IMG/VR virus record: IMGVR_UViG_3300022821_000073
Location: 1 to 32,484 of that record
DNA from: a virus
Strand: one strand, 5' to 3'
Length of the DNA stretch: 32,484 bases
The notes under the pieces were generated by a model that worked only from the letters and a program-made list of their open reading frames with translations, had not been told where the DNA came from and ran no database searches. Of the stretch, positions 1 through 21,808 are shown piece after piece (within the stretch, counting starts at the first letter, position 1; every line of letters begins with the position of its first letter). The position numbers were made by a program, and so were the translations under genes.

Positions 1-224
1 CCTTTAATCGTTGCATCTCCTACTACCCACACTACTACACCACCTTCTTTAGTTACACGGTATAATTCTTCTATGCAGTCTTTCCACACCTGCTCAGACC
101 ACTGGTCGTTGTTACCGTTGTATGTTCTAAGGTTATCGTATGGTGGTGAAGTTACTGTGAGGTCAATACTGTTTTCTTCTAGCTTTGTGAGAGCGATTAG
201 TGCGTCATCGTGTATTAGTTTCAT
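1..224 (-). CDS. DNA methyltransferase, N4/N6 type (partial)
   Basis: The gene starts with ATG at 224 and leaves the window at its left edge after about 74 codons, so only the N-terminus is visible. The translation reads MKLIHDDALIALTKLEENSI and is followed by DLTVTSPPYDNL. The TSPPY sequence is the catalytic motif IV of amino-methyltransferases that modify adenine N6 or cytosine N4. A later GGVVVWVVGDA stretch fits the next strand of the Rossmann-like fold. The order (motif IV close to the N-terminus, SAM-binding motif later) suggests the beta class, but the rest is missing. It lies 10 nt downstream of the DHFR-like gene on the same strand and is the third methyltransferase gene here. Target base and site cannot be told. 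Confidence 0.82.
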   Translation of the reverse strand, partial: MKLIHDDALIALTKLEENSIDLTVTSPPYDNLRTYNGNNDQWSEQVWKDCIEELYRVTKEGGVVVWVVGDATIK

Positions 225-234
225 ACCAATCTAA

Positions 235-459
235 TTACTCTAGTAACCCCAGTGCTTCGTCTATGGTTTTGCCGTCTGCAGGAATCAATGCCTTTAGCGG
301 GTAAATCTGTACACTGCCTTTTTCTTTCTCGCTTTCTATAGCGTAGCCTTCTGGTGTAAGGTCTGTCTGGTAGAACCCTACAACTACTCCTTGCCACTGT
401 GCCCCTGACTTTTTTTTAAGCCTGTCTCCCATCTTGTGTGTAAATGTTTCTGTATTCAT
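235..459 (-). CDS. dfrB: R67-type (DfrB) dihydrofolate reductase homologue
   Basis: A 74-residue protein whose core closely matches plasmid R67 dihydrofolate reductase, which as a homotetramer reduces dihydrofolate with NADPH and is structurally unrelated to chromosomal DHFR. Residues 10-58 align without gaps to R67 residues 26-74. About 35 of 49 positions are identical when compared with the R67 sequence recalled from memory. The single active-site pore residues are kept: Lys16 (R67 Lys32), and Val50-Gln51-Ile52-Tyr53 (R67 V66-Q67-I68-Y69). Trp22 and the LTPEGYA turn are also kept. The disordered R67 N-terminus is shorter here, with unrelated sequence. It starts one base after the stop of a 34-residue membrane peptide and precedes a methyltransferase gene. 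There is no integron context, so this is a phage gene, plausibly for folate-linked dTMP supply. Activity and trimethoprim tolerance are inference. Confidence 0.85.
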
Positions 460-1047: not shown

Positions 1048-1377
1048 CTATTCTTTATCTGGTAGTGGGGTTAGGTATGTATCTCGCAACGTATTCCTAA
1101 AACGTTTAAAGGCTTTCCATTGCCCGACACCTTCATCTGGTAAGTCTTCTGATAGCTCTATTTTGTCTGATAGAGCTATTGCATTTTTATATGCACCCCT
1201 CACCGCTTCCTCTGCTACTGTTTGGGCGTAGGATTTAAGACTTCTACGTAGCCACGGTTCAACTTCATTACCGCCAATGTTTCCACCATCTGTGTAAAAG
1301 TCAAACTCGTAGAGTTCTTCAACCACCCTCTCTAGCTCTGTATTGTCCTCTCTTGCGTTTGCGTGTGCTCTGTTCAT
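1048..1377 (-). CDS. Hypothetical protein, 109 aa
   Basis: Soluble protein of unknown function, rich in charged residues, beginning MNRAHANAREDNTELERVV. The frame is open 14 codons upstream, but the ATG at 1377 overlaps the TGA of the preceding 42-residue gene (ATGA), which supports it as the true start. The middle (EPWLRRSLKSYAQTVAEEAV) looks helical. No catalytic motif or membrane segment is seen. It belongs to a run of overlapping small early genes and is probably translated by coupling. Confidence 0.6.
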   Translation of the reverse strand: MNRAHANAREDNTELERVVEELYEFDFYTDGGNIGGNEVEPWLRRSLKSYAQTVAEEAVRGAYKNAIALSDKIELSEDLPDEGVGQWKAFKRFRNTLRDTYLTPLPDKE

Positions 1378-1502
1378 AGCTCTAGTTTTTCTAATAGTTT
1401 GAATAATAGGCGTGGGCACTTGACTGGGAATGACCAGATGCAGTCACTGTCTGTTACTTGTATACGTATCTCTGTGACTAGTTTCCAGTCTTGTTTGTTC
1501 AT
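1374..1502 (-). CDS. Hypothetical small protein, 42 aa
   Basis: Short frame MNKQDWKLVTEIRIQVTDSD, ending in a basic-hydrophobic helix (RLLFKLLEKLEL). Its TGA overlaps the next ATG in an ATGA junction. Upstream, the minus strand has a TATAAG element 8 nt before the ATG, close to the spacing of the leaderless promoters found elsewhere in this window, so it may head the transcript that runs to the left edge. No Shine-Dalgarno and no recognised family. Confidence 0.5.
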   Translation of the reverse strand: MNKQDWKLVTEIRIQVTDSDCIWSFPVKCPRLLFKLLEKLEL

Positions 1503-2828: not shown

Positions 2829-2896
2829 ATAAGTTTTTCCATAATGTCCCTAATTACATTTACCGTCACTGCGTTGCCGAGTTTTTTACAATACAT
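2825..2896 (-). pseudogene. Orphan 3' end of a cytosine-5 methyltransferase gene
   Basis: A 23-codon frame whose product contains KKLGNAVTVNVIRDIMEKLI. This is motif X and the C-terminus of a DNA cytosine-5 methyltransferase, closely parallel to VLGNAVTTNVIKDIVCQLLK at the end of the intact gene just upstream. At DNA level the two copies are clearly diverged, so this is not a fresh duplication. The HNH gene separates it from the intact methyltransferase. Its TGA overlaps the Dam-type ATG. The best reading is a leftover of the original methyltransferase 3' end after HNH insertion. It could still be translated from its ATG inside the HNH tail. Confidence 0.8.
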
Positions 2897-3362
2897 ACTG
2901 TCCGTTCTTAAACTTTATAGTCCCATCTTTTATTAGTTGTCTTACAACTGAACTGAGTGATATATGTAGTTGTTGGTGGTGTGAATTATTTTTACAGAGA
3001 AACAAGTTGTCTATAGAGTAATTCATTCTGTCTGTATCGATGTGATGTACTGGTTCACTACGCTTTGGGGTTCTTCCTATATGTTTTTCCATTTCTAACA
3101 CATGCTTGAACACGTACCCTATAGCACTAGATCGTGGGTGTGTAGGTAAATGAGAAACAGGATAGCCTGTTTTAATAACTTCTCCGTTTCTTTTTCTATT
3201 ACGACTATTTGCACCTGATAGTGGCTTTGTTATACCTAAACGCTTTAAGTGCCGACATACTGTTGTTCTTGTACACCCATATTTCTCAGCTAATTCTCCG
3301 CTACTCATTGTCTGGTATTCTTTTTTAAGTTGTGTATCGTTTGTTATTTTAGAAGCTGACAT
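2886..3362 (-). CDS. HNH homing-type endonuclease
   Basis: A 158-residue protein with an N-terminal helix-turn-helix (SSGELAEKYGCTRTTVCRHL, residues 20-39) and a C-terminal HNH nuclease core. The core has His106-His107 in PVHHIDTDRMNY, Asn119 in IDNL, and His128-His129 in NNSHHQQLH. This form (HTH plus HNH) is common in free-standing phage homing endonucleases, which cut a recipient genome so that their own gene is copied in. Its first 19 nt overlap the end of the cytosine methyltransferase gene, and its last codons overlap the orphan methyltransferase tail. The start at 3362 is used; ATG at codon 19 is an alternative. The target is presumably the uninvaded methyltransferase gene. Confidence 0.85.
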   Translation of the reverse strand: MSASKITNDTQLKKEYQTMSSGELAEKYGCTRTTVCRHLKRLGITKPLSGANSRNRKRNGEVIKTGYPVSHLPTHPRSSAIGYVFKHVLEMEKHIGRTPKRSEPVHHIDTDRMNYSIDNLFLCKNNSHHQQLHISLSSVVRQLIKDGTIKFKNGQYVL

Positions 3363-4447
3363 ACAATATCTTTTATTACGTTAGTAGTTACAGCATTTCC
3401 TAAAACTTTATAACGCTGTGTATCTGATATTAACACCTCTTGACCTTGGTCGTCAACTCCATACTTGGTGAAATGGTCTGGAAATCCCTGGAGTCGTTCG
3501 CACTCGGTTGGGGTTAGTCTTCTGATAGCGTTCACTACAGGAGGCTCTTTGTAGCTTGTCGCTGTAATGGCTACACTATTCTCGTAGTCTTTCTTGTAAT
3601 TCATCATCTTTGGGTTTTGTATAAACGGCTGTCTATTTCCTCCCTGCATAGTGTTAAGGGTAGGGCTTAGTCCGTCTGTTCCGTACACTCTGTCGTTTGA
3701 GTGGGTTGGTTGGTTGAGCTGTACTATTTCTTGTGCATTGAGTTTACTTTCAGTGACATACGTTCCGTTTGCTTGCCCTCCGTAGTAACGGGTGGTAAGG
3801 GTGTTTGAATGTTGTCCCGATAACTGAGTAACCGCTTCTGAATCGTCTCCGAAAGGAAATACTTCGGGTCTACGTGTTCCTCGAGAATGTCCGATAATGA
3901 ACACTCTCTCTCTGTTCTGTGGGACTCCGTGATTTTTGCTGTTAATAATTTGCCATTGGACATCGTACCGAAGCTCATCAAGCGTTGCGATGATGGTACG
4001 GAATGTGTTCCCTTTGTCGTGAGATAACAACCCTTTAACGTTCTCAAACATAAAAAGGCGTGGTTGTTTTTCCCGAAGTATCCGTGCAAGCTCGAAGAAC
4101 ATTGTTCCGCGAGTGTCCTCAAATCCTCCTCTGTTTCCTGCGATGCTAAACGCTTGGCAAGGGAAGCCACCCACCAAGAGGTCAAAGTCTGGTAATGTTT
4201 TTTCATTGATTTCTGTGATGTCTCCATAGTTTTTGTGGTTAGGGAAGTGCTTTTGATAAATTGAGGTGGCGTACTTGTCAATTTCGGAGTAACCAACACA
4301 AGTAAACCTGTCCTGTGACTCCTGAGTGTCGGGCATAGTTTCTCGTAATACCTCACTCCCGTTCCGTATGTTGGGTCGATTATCATATGCCTGTTTTATT
4401 CCTAATTCAAATCCTCCTATTCCAGAGAATGTACTAAAGTATTTCAT
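3344..4447 (-). CDS. DNA (cytosine-5) methyltransferase
   Basis: A complete 367-residue C5 methyltransferase that would methylate cytosine in a specific site using SAM. Motif I FSGIGGFE (7-14), motif IV GGFPCQAFS with catalytic Cys97, motif VI ENV (135-137), motif VIII QNRERVFI (177-184), motif IX RRLTPTECERLQGFP (309-323) and motif X LGNAVT (349-354) are all present. The region from about 190 to 308 is the target-recognition domain and has the SPTLNTMQGGNRQP pattern seen in phage enzymes. No cognate restriction enzyme is nearby, so it is an orphan, probably anti-restriction. It heads a transcript: TAGTAT lies 6 nt before the ATG. Its tail appears to have arrived with, or been repaired around, the HNH gene. 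Confidence 0.92.
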   Translation of the reverse strand: MKYFSTFSGIGGFELGIKQAYDNRPNIRNGSEVLRETMPDTQESQDRFTCVGYSEIDKYATSIYQKHFPNHKNYGDITEINEKTLPDFDLLVGGFPCQAFSIAGNRGGFEDTRGTMFFELARILREKQPRLFMFENVKGLLSHDKGNTFRTIIATLDELRYDVQWQIINSKNHGVPQNRERVFIIGHSRGTRRPEVFPFGDDSEAVTQLSGQHSNTLTTRYYGGQANGTYVTESKLNAQEIVQLNQPTHSNDRVYGTDGLSPTLNTMQGGNRQPFIQNPKMMNYKKDYENSVAITATSYKEPPVVNAIRRLTPTECERLQGFPDHFTKYGVDDQGQEVLISDTQRYKVLGNAVTTNVIKDIVCQLLK

Positions 4448-5096: not shown

Positions 5097-5750
5097 CTAA
5101 GAATTTGAGTCAAAGTCTGAAACTTTTATCCCATCCACCCGTGCGTTTTGAATCACTCCACCATCTATCTTTTGCATAATAACATTTAGCTGAGCGTAGA
5201 AGGATGCGTGATCACCTTTCTCTGCGACAATCTCGTAGTCATACGCGATGCCTTCCATCTCTAATTCTGATGAGTGCGTACCGGAGTCCTCTACTCCCAC
5301 CTGCACAATCTTAATAATTACACCGCCATGGTCACGTATCGTCTGGGCTTCGTTGTGGAAGCGACAATCGTCTACGAGCACATCGCCTAGCGTCTTGCGT
5401 GTTGTCACCCATTCATTCACCCAGTAATTGACGTTTCCCGCACGTCGCACCTCGGTCCCATAGTTCTGCATAAGGGCACGCATGAGGGGTGGTTTGTCTA
5501 AGAATAATTGGTCTATCCATGATTGGTCTATCCATTTTTGCTGTGCGACTTTGTCTGAAAACATCCTGCTAGGATACTCTAGCTCTACCAATTTTTGCAA
5601 AAGGTCTGGAAAGTTTTGCTTTAGCTCTGCTACTAATGCGTCCTTAAAGTTGACCTTGGTAAACCCTTTGTAGTTTTCTAGGATGTGGGTACAGGCTGTT
5701 GTCTTGCCTGACTTTGCTTTGCCTATAAAGGCTATCGTTTTATTTTCCAT
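5097..5750 (-). CDS. Deoxynucleoside monophosphate kinase
   Basis: A 217-residue P-loop kinase that phosphorylates dNMPs to dNDPs for phage DNA synthesis, like T4 gp1 and related phage enzymes. Walker A is GKAKSGKT (10-17). LMQNYGTEVRR (93-103) is the typical substrate-site segment, and VLVDDCRFHNEA (124-135) matches the conserved DxRF-NEA motif. HSSE (159-162) is the lid-region signature. The frame is open 11 codons upstream to a GTG, but ATG at 5750 is preferred because it overlaps the end of the zinc-ribbon gene, as coupled genes here do. It is the last gene of the replication operon. Confidence 0.85.
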   Translation of the reverse strand: MENKTIAFIGKAKSGKTTACTHILENYKGFTKVNFKDALVAELKQNFPDLLQKLVELEYPSRMFSDKVAQQKWIDQSWIDQLFLDKPPLMRALMQNYGTEVRRAGNVNYWVNEWVTTRKTLGDVLVDDCRFHNEAQTIRDHGGVIIKIVQVGVEDSGTHSSELEMEGIAYDYEIVAEKGDHASFYAQLNVIMQKIDGGVIQNARVDGIKVSDFDSNS

Positions 5751-5896
5751 GCTCTGGTTGAACTTAAATGATAATTTTTGCACTCAGGACATTTGTATAT
5801 GTGGAACTTTTTGCCCTTATACCTGTTGTGCATAGCCCCCTGCATCTTGCGCGCATCGCGTTTGGTCTTGAGCTTAGCTTTGTGGGCGCATATCAT
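5732..5896 (-). CDS. Zinc-ribbon mini-protein, 54 aa
   Basis: A basic 54-residue protein with MICAHKAKLKTKRDA at the start and FHIYKCPECKNYHLSS near the end. The C-H pair of CAH and the CPEC motif with a following His can bind one zinc. This layout (C-x-H-K, a basic helix, then Y-x-CP-x-C-x-x-x-HL) recurs in many small phage proteins of unknown role. Its ATG overlaps the TGA of the 28-residue gene, and its end overlaps the kinase start, so all three are coupled. DNA or RNA binding is plausible. Confidence 0.65.
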   Translation of the reverse strand: MICAHKAKLKTKRDARKMQGAMHNRYKGKKFHIYKCPECKNYHLSSTRAWKIKR

Positions 5897-20605: not shown

Positions 20606-21808
20606 ATGTTAACTGACTACATGGCAGCGTTTGATAACTCTTACCAAGAGATTTATCAGAAGACGCTGGTTTCAAAATCTGTGATGAACACACGTTTTGA
20701 AGCAAAATTAAAATTTGGAGAATCAGTAGAACGAGTATCATACAACATTGGCGCTGTGCGCGTACGAGACGTTGTACGAGGTGCTGCATCAACTATTGAC
20801 GCAATCACAGATACTACTCAACTACTTGAAATCAACATTGAGAAAGAAGCAGTGTTCTACATCTCAGACGGAGAATCAACACAGGCTGGACCTCTAAACC
20901 CAGGTACTGAAATCGGAGCTAAAATCGCACACAAAGTCGCACAAGACCTTGATGCACGATGTTTCGCAGAAGTTACAAACGCTGCAAACACATTCGATGA
21001 AGGAGACCTTACGACTGGAGTTTCAAATGGAACACCAATCACACTTTCTGCTACAACAGTTCCGCAAATGACATCACGTATGTCTGCAAAACTAACGTAC
21101 AAAGAAAACATCCAAACTGCTACAAACATGGTGTTTGCAGTAGACTCATACTCAGCAGCAATGATCGAGCAGTACCTTATGGGCAAGGACATCGACATCG
21201 CTGGTTCAGTATTCAAGAACGGGTACGCAGGTGTTATCCGAAACGCAGCAATGATCGTTTCAGAAAACCTATTGAGTTCAGCAGTAATGACATTCTCAGG
21301 AGTGAACGTTGATACTAAGACTATTGTAATCAACGGTGTTACAGCAACTTCACAGGCAACTGTAAACGCAGCTGGAGGTTACGACGTTAAGGGAACAGCA
21401 GATGCAGCAGGAGATTCTCTTGTAGCACTACTTATGAACTCTGACGGTAACGCAGCGGGCACAGGAACAGCATCGACTTACTTCGAGTTCACCGCAGCTG
21501 ACCGAGAAACCCTAGATGACGCTAACCTTACAGCAGTAAATGATTCAGGTGTAGTTACAATCACAGGTGCTGGACGTCTAGTTATCTCTGAAGACGAAAC
21601 TAACGGTGCTGTTACAGCTAACACTGTACACTGTTACTTCGGAAAACGAGGAGCAATCGACCTAGTGGTACAAGACCTATCACCAGTTGACATGCGAAAG
21701 ACAGATGACCGACGAGGTACTAACGTATTCTCTTCATACCTAGCAGGAATCAAGACTTTCACCGATGGTGGAAAGCAGTTCCTCAACGTAAAGATCGCAG
21801 CTGTATAA
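20606..21808 (+). CDS. Major capsid protein
   Basis: A 400-residue HK97-fold type coat protein. The N-terminal FDNSYQEIYQKTLVSKSVMN, the E-loop-like segment (EAKLKFGESVERVSYNIGAV), the spine helix around LNPGTEIGAKIAHKVAQDLD and the C-terminal FSSYLAGIKTFTDGGKQFLN follow the usual order. About residues 226-340 form a separate beta-rich stretch (VTATSQATVNAAGGYDVKGT, TASTYFEFTAADR) that reads like an inserted decoration domain rather than the A-domain alone. No in-frame cleavage site is evident. The leader carries a hairpin and no Shine-Dalgarno. Confidence 0.88.
   Translation: MLTDYMAAFDNSYQEIYQKTLVSKSVMNTRFEAKLKFGESVERVSYNIGAVRVRDVVRGAASTIDAITDTTQLLEINIEKEAVFYISDGESTQAGPLNPGTEIGAKIAHKVAQDLDARCFAEVTNAANTFDEGDLTTGVSNGTPITLSATTVPQMTSRMSAKLTYKENIQTATNMVFAVDSYSAAMIEQYLMGKDIDIAGSVFKNGYAGVIRNAAMIVSENLLSSAVMTFSGVNVDTKTIVINGVTATSQATVNAAGGYDVKGTADAAGDSLVALLMNSDGNAAGTGTASTYFEFTAADRETLDDANLTAVNDSGVVTITGAGRLVISEDETNGAVTANTVHCYFGKRGAIDLVVQDLSPVDMRKTDDRRGTNVFSSYLAGIKTFTDGGKQFLNVKIAAV

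Follow-up and report, generated by a model that had tools for sequence, protein, structure and literature searches.

What does a DfrB-type dihydrofolate reductase do in a phage genome? Where DfrB proteins come from and what they do natively have been stated as unknown (PMC9835603), and the question is raised again by a 32,484-base linear IMG/VR record (hereafter the window, meaning the whole stretch of DNA analysed). In this fragment of an uncultured phage, a phage operon includes a DfrB domain that is intact and stands alone. We examined the predicted protein, its genomic surroundings and its relatives in phages and bacteria, and weighed the roles that it may play.

A stand-alone DfrB domain with an intact pore motif

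The gene and the residues considered below lie at the following positions:

235..459, minus strand: dfrB-like gene with an ATG start, encoding a stand-alone SH3-like protein of 74 amino acids
412..414, minus strand: codon of Lys16 (R67 K32), from the sequence; role from PMC9835603
394..396, minus strand: codon of Trp22 (R67 Trp38; dimer-dimer interface), from the sequence; role from PMC9835603
298..315, minus strand: Ser49-Val-Gln-Ile-Tyr-Pro54 (R67 65-70, the VQIY pore motif), from the sequence
322..324, minus strand: codon of Glu46, which replaces R67 His62 (E in 78/108 cores, H in 30/108)
238..273, minus strand: C-terminal tail, residues 63-74 (12 residues), extending past where R67 ends; modelled with low confidence

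Sequence comparison placed the protein in the DfrB family. The Pfam DHFR_2 profile (PF06442) matched it with 85.9 bits against a cut-off of 25 (E=1.7e-24), and phmmer aligned its residues 7-58 with chain residues 7-58 of R67 (1vie) without a gap (E=5.7e-20). Residue n of the window protein corresponds to residue n+16 of R67, the chain beginning at the equivalent of R67 residue 17; K32, W38 and V66-Q67-I68-Y69 of R67 are thus K16, W22 and V50-Q51-I52-Y53, and the whole stretch from Ser65 to Pro70 is retained. An earlier sequence-only reading of this DNA had described a gap-free match to the R67 core with all pore residues kept, which these searches bear out, and had given about 35 of 49 identities to R67; the count computed against DfrB1, 35 of 50 core columns, is essentially the same.

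With R67/DfrB1 and the mobile DfrB2-B10 proteins of PF06442, the window protein has in common the fold, the gap-free core, K32, W38 and the S65-P70 motif. It differs from R67/DfrB1 in lacking the 16 N-terminal residues, in carrying the 12-residue C-terminal tail, and in having F29 for W45 and E46 for H62. The named mobile DfrB proteins covered by the resistance-allele model NCBIfam NF000331 have about 78 residues and an R67-like N-terminus, whereas the window protein has 74 residues, an N-terminus that is not R67-like, and a score of 90.2 bits, below that model's cut-off of 137. It also matched phrog_31682, a family whose function is not annotated (4.5e-19).

The AF2 model of the single chain had a mean pLDDT of 84.6, with values of about 90 or more in the core. 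The best PDB matches of this model were all R67 (Foldseek E 1e-7), and structural alignment placed model residues 3..62 on chain residues 19..78 (Z 11.3, rmsd 0.9 A, 60 residues). Closer kinship to unrelated SH3-like proteins than to DfrB would have spoken against the assignment; the best SH3-like fold other than R67 reached a Z of 7.3.

We compared the pore and interface residues across the collected homologues. K32 was present in 107 of 108 unique cores, and its conservation is informative because this residue lies outside all search patterns. W38 was found in 108 of 112 unique cores, the 108 being those picked for an in-register W; it is also invariant in a pattern-free alignment of cultured phages and R67 (A1). 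The S65-P70 motif occurred in all 108 cores, a conservation partly forced by the search, because the motif served as a pattern in the scans of viruses and genomes; VQ[IV]YP was retained in the aligned pattern-free INPHARED hits too. Glu in place of H62 is also found in characterised relatives, namely the protein matching DfrB-H4 (L007) and the homologue from Methylobacterium pseudosasicola (L210), the organism of the active DfrB-H5.

Genomic context of the window

Two further features of the window bear on the discussion:

3..224, minus strand: start of a gene for an N6/N4 DNA methyltransferase, truncated at the edge of the window; a second contig (L002) has it in full
5097..5783, minus strand: deoxynucleotide monophosphate kinase (PF21448), the sole nucleotide-supply gene seen in the window; listed as context

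The second contig, L002, has 99.7% DNA identity to the window over the aligned stretches and confirms both dfrB and its methyltransferase neighbour. Its dfrB differs from that of the window by two bases, one of them silent, and the full methyltransferase (256 amino acids, L002:2723-3493) starts 10 bases past the dfrB stop. Other genes near dfrB encode a YqaJ-type nuclease, Dam-type and C5 methyltransferases and an HNH protein. An insert of about 1.6 kb in the window (2858-4446), holding the C5 DNA methyltransferase and the HNH protein, is missing from the near-identical L002; at its edges, L002 1-91 equals window 4537-4447 exactly and L002 81-2946 corresponds to window 2857-1, with an 11-base overlap. 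At a small ORF in the window (1048-1419), a short block differs from L002 between flanks that are 99.7% identical, as if it had been replaced.

The phage has no close cultured relative, its terminase sharing about 26% identity over half its length with phage records, and a putative capsid protein (20606-21808; the identity is our reading) had no match among these records. QueD, QueC, QueF and FolE were not found in the 32 kb fragment, nor was ThyX or ThyA, and Rfam elements were found neither in the window nor in seven loci.

The sequence-only reading had argued that the gene is not a recent cassette capture, and our results favour this view. In contrast to mobile DfrB genes, the window gene lies in a phage operon, and no tyrosine integrase was found in the record, which is a fragment. 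Its third-position GC of 0.427 fits the phage (window GC 0.437), its N-terminus is distinct, and the sequences closest to its product come from phages, although by a small margin (37/50 for the nearest other phage vs 35/50 for DfrB1). In a tree built on 50-column cores, with weak internal support, the window DfrB sits in a poorly resolved part.

Spread of DfrB relatives in phages and bacteria

The search of viral databases that had been proposed from the sequence returned 26 INPHARED records with DfrB relatives (43-67% identity), many of them already labelled dihydrofolate reductase, and 258 relatives in IMG/VR, of which 80 were kept. Across 84,980 bacterial and archaeal species genomes we found 51 relatives, mostly in Alpha- and Betaproteobacteria; the two scans used different patterns on databases of different size, and their counts give no rate. 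By homology, the survey shows putative DfrB copies to be widespread in phages and extends the idea of a virus-associated reservoir.

The novelty that the earlier reading implied was overstated: phage DfrB homologues are already known, and the window protein adds one more of them. Two phage proteins have been tested by expression (PMC9835603). DfrB-H4, from a Vibrio phage, made E. coli resistant to trimethoprim; DfrB-H3, which comes from a Pseudomonas phage, did not, an outcome that the authors ascribe to a lack of soluble expression. The same study described DfrB-H5 of Methylobacterium as a reductase, with evidence for tetrameric assembly, and noted a DNA methyltransferase neighbourhood for DfrB-H3, H4 and H5 (PMC9835603). 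The window shares with DfrB-H4 and DfrB-H3 a phage-encoded DfrB-like domain, the signature residues and a nearby DNA methyltransferase. The proteins matching these two in our collection (L007 and L010) are about 60% identical to the window protein and have 218 and 167 amino acids with extra parts, where the window encodes the domain by itself. L007, which fits the description of DfrB-H4, is 60% identical to the window protein over 50 residues, and L210 is 56% identical. Two further papers list phage homologues with 50-72% identity to known DfrB, one reporting DfrB2-like ORFs of freshwater viromes (PMC7265639) and the other eight dfrB genes of lytic phages (PMC12466917). In the available portions of both, these are known as sequences, and no link to 7-deazaguanine genes is noted.

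In L003, L006, L007, L009 and L010, the phage DfrB domain is extended at its N- or C-terminus by about 50-200 residues of unrelated sequence. A DfrB gene on a Pseudomonas aeruginosa plasmid (L181:4971-5174; NZ_OR652289.1) lies between arr-3 and catB3, on the strand opposite its neighbours; sequences from freshwater phages resemble it more (39/50) than any named mobile DfrB tested does (at most 34/50). An unannotated DfrB-like stretch at the extreme end of the Aeromonas phage AsC4_1 record (L008:3-149; PV158446.1) contains an internal stop codon and is either a broken copy or a record-end artefact.

One DfrB clade is linked to 7-deazaguanine genes

Outside the window, the neighbourhoods of phage DfrB genes revealed a recurrent arrangement. 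DfrB is grouped with genes for FolE, QueD, QueE and/or a TGT-fold protein on the same strand (here called the Que module) in 18 of the 56 dereplicated phage groups. Counting one locus per group, the direct neighbour of DfrB was QueD in 10/16, QueE in 4/9 and the TGT-like protein in 3/10, and in several loci the end of queD and the beginning of DfrB share 4 bases. Labels came from Pfam, NCBIfam and PHROGs, the NCBIfam hits for QueD and QueE falling below equivalog cut-offs and the PHROG hits being strong. The gene order is real, and it suggests a pterin-linked native role for the DfrB clade concerned. All Que-linked DfrB fall in one clade of the tree, apart from the window DfrB and together with a few phages that have no Que module; the association may accordingly reflect one event. 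In a sample drawn blind to DfrB, only 3 of 24 Que modules contained it, which indicates that DfrB is optional and that the pathway does not need it.

The TGT-like protein is large and carries the motifs GDSGGFQ and FDCASP. It had no sequence match in Pfam, NCBIfam, PHROGs or the PDB and was placed by fold search alone (TGT fold, Foldseek E 1.8e-6, probability 1.00, on a model with pLDDT 71). L051:4985-6535 and its relatives (alignment A3) form a TGT-fold family found in at least 593 IMG/VR stretches, with FolE downstream in 24 of the 24 loci long enough to tell; this family probably represents a DpdA-type transglycosylase that these libraries do not cover.

Among the phages with Que modules, no QueF scored over its cut-off, the sub-cut-off hits coinciding with FolE; no FolA was found, and QueC gave two weak hits, one just over the cut-off. 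We considered DfrB as a replacement for QueF in converting preQ0 to preQ1 and dropped the idea, since with so little sign of QueC preQ0 is probably not made. Beside bacterial DfrB genes we found no QueD, FolE, QueE, TGT-like or N6/N4-methyltransferase gene, using phage-built models that may miss distant ones. Our literature search found no paper linking DfrB with queuosine.

What the window protein may do

Sequence comparison and modelling establish homology to R67, a predicted single-chain fold, and conservation of the pore and interface residues. On these grounds we think it probable, with good but not full confidence, that the window gene encodes an active R67-like reductase, most likely an NADPH-dependent dihydrofolate or dihydropterin reductase. 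Four 74-residue chains would form a D2-symmetric tetramer in whose central pore Lys16, Gln51, Ile52 and Tyr53 would hold NADPH together with a dihydropterin, for example dihydrofolate, with direct transfer of hydride between the two. Such a protein would reduce dihydrofolate with NADPH, would be insensitive to trimethoprim, and in the infected cell would probably serve as a source of reduced folate or pterin. Activity is plausible because relatives about as distant, DfrB-H4 and DfrB-H5, are active. Against it stand the failure of DfrB-H3 to give resistance and the missing R67 N-terminus, which aids expression of the folded protein; yet removal of this N-terminus after expression leaves R67 active (PMC9835603), and a chain that starts at the equivalent of residue 17 counts in favour of activity. 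Dihydrofolate reduction could also be a side activity of a protein with another native ligand, and the genes surrounding dfrB in the window name no folate pathway.

A narrower form of this explanation, proposed in the sequence-only reading, is dTMP supply, in which the protein would act as a classical phage dihydrofolate reductase that regenerates tetrahydrofolate after thymidylate synthase. R67 does reduce dihydrofolate, the window holds a deoxynucleotide kinase, and ThyA occurs in 6 of 57 phage records with DfrB; ThyX, however, occurs in none of the 57, many of which are fragments, and neither enzyme is in the window, although host ThyA could serve. When 143 neighbours from the groups lacking Que modules were scanned with Pfam, the 25 families listed included no folate gene. 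We regard this role as possible and somewhat doubtful, and the data do not specifically support it. We find it distinctly unlikely that the protein is an SH3-like accessory with no catalytic function, serving for instance the neighbouring DNA methyltransferase or recombination proteins. N6/N4 methyltransferases do account for 4 of the 186 genes lying no more than three positions from DfrB vs 1 of 663 farther away (p=0.009, a value that ignores shared descent), a similar neighbourhood surrounds DfrB-H3, H4 and H5 (PMC9835603), and some DfrB domains are fused to other, unrelated parts; but the methyltransferase link is a weak one of four groups, a scaffold has no obvious use for the kept K32 and pore motif, and the nearest non-DfrB fold is distant from the model.

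The Que modules raise another role, in which DfrB would act between QueD and QueE, reducing a dihydropterin to the tetrahydro form needed at that stage, for instance by keeping 6-carboxytetrahydropterin reduced on the way to 7-deazaguanines in phage DNA. The position of DfrB in the module, its frequent place next to queD including the 4-base overlaps, and the lack of FolA and of a QueF over cut-off in these phages agree with such a role. The possible single event behind a clade that includes a few phages with no module, and the rarity of DfrB in the blind sample, argue against it, as does the window itself, which is placed elsewhere in the tree and has no such genes in its 32 kb; for the window protein we hold it improbable. 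The observation that started this work is confirmed, and its interpretation is partly supported.

Implications for the DfrB family

The survey brought to light hundreds of phage DfrB copies, one clade of which is tied to pterin genes of DNA-base modification. This gene link offers a clue to the role of DfrB in nature and narrows the question to a few enzyme assays. On a speculative view to which we give little credence, the native task of phage DfrB, at least in one large freshwater clade, would be dihydropterin reduction in support of the QueD-QueE steps leading to 7-deazaguanine DNA modification; the mobile trimethoprim-insensitive DfrB proteins would then be cousins of a phage pterin reductase, recruited as dihydrofolate reductases. 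The survey also shows that a DfrB gene in a phage should not automatically be taken for a resistance gene.
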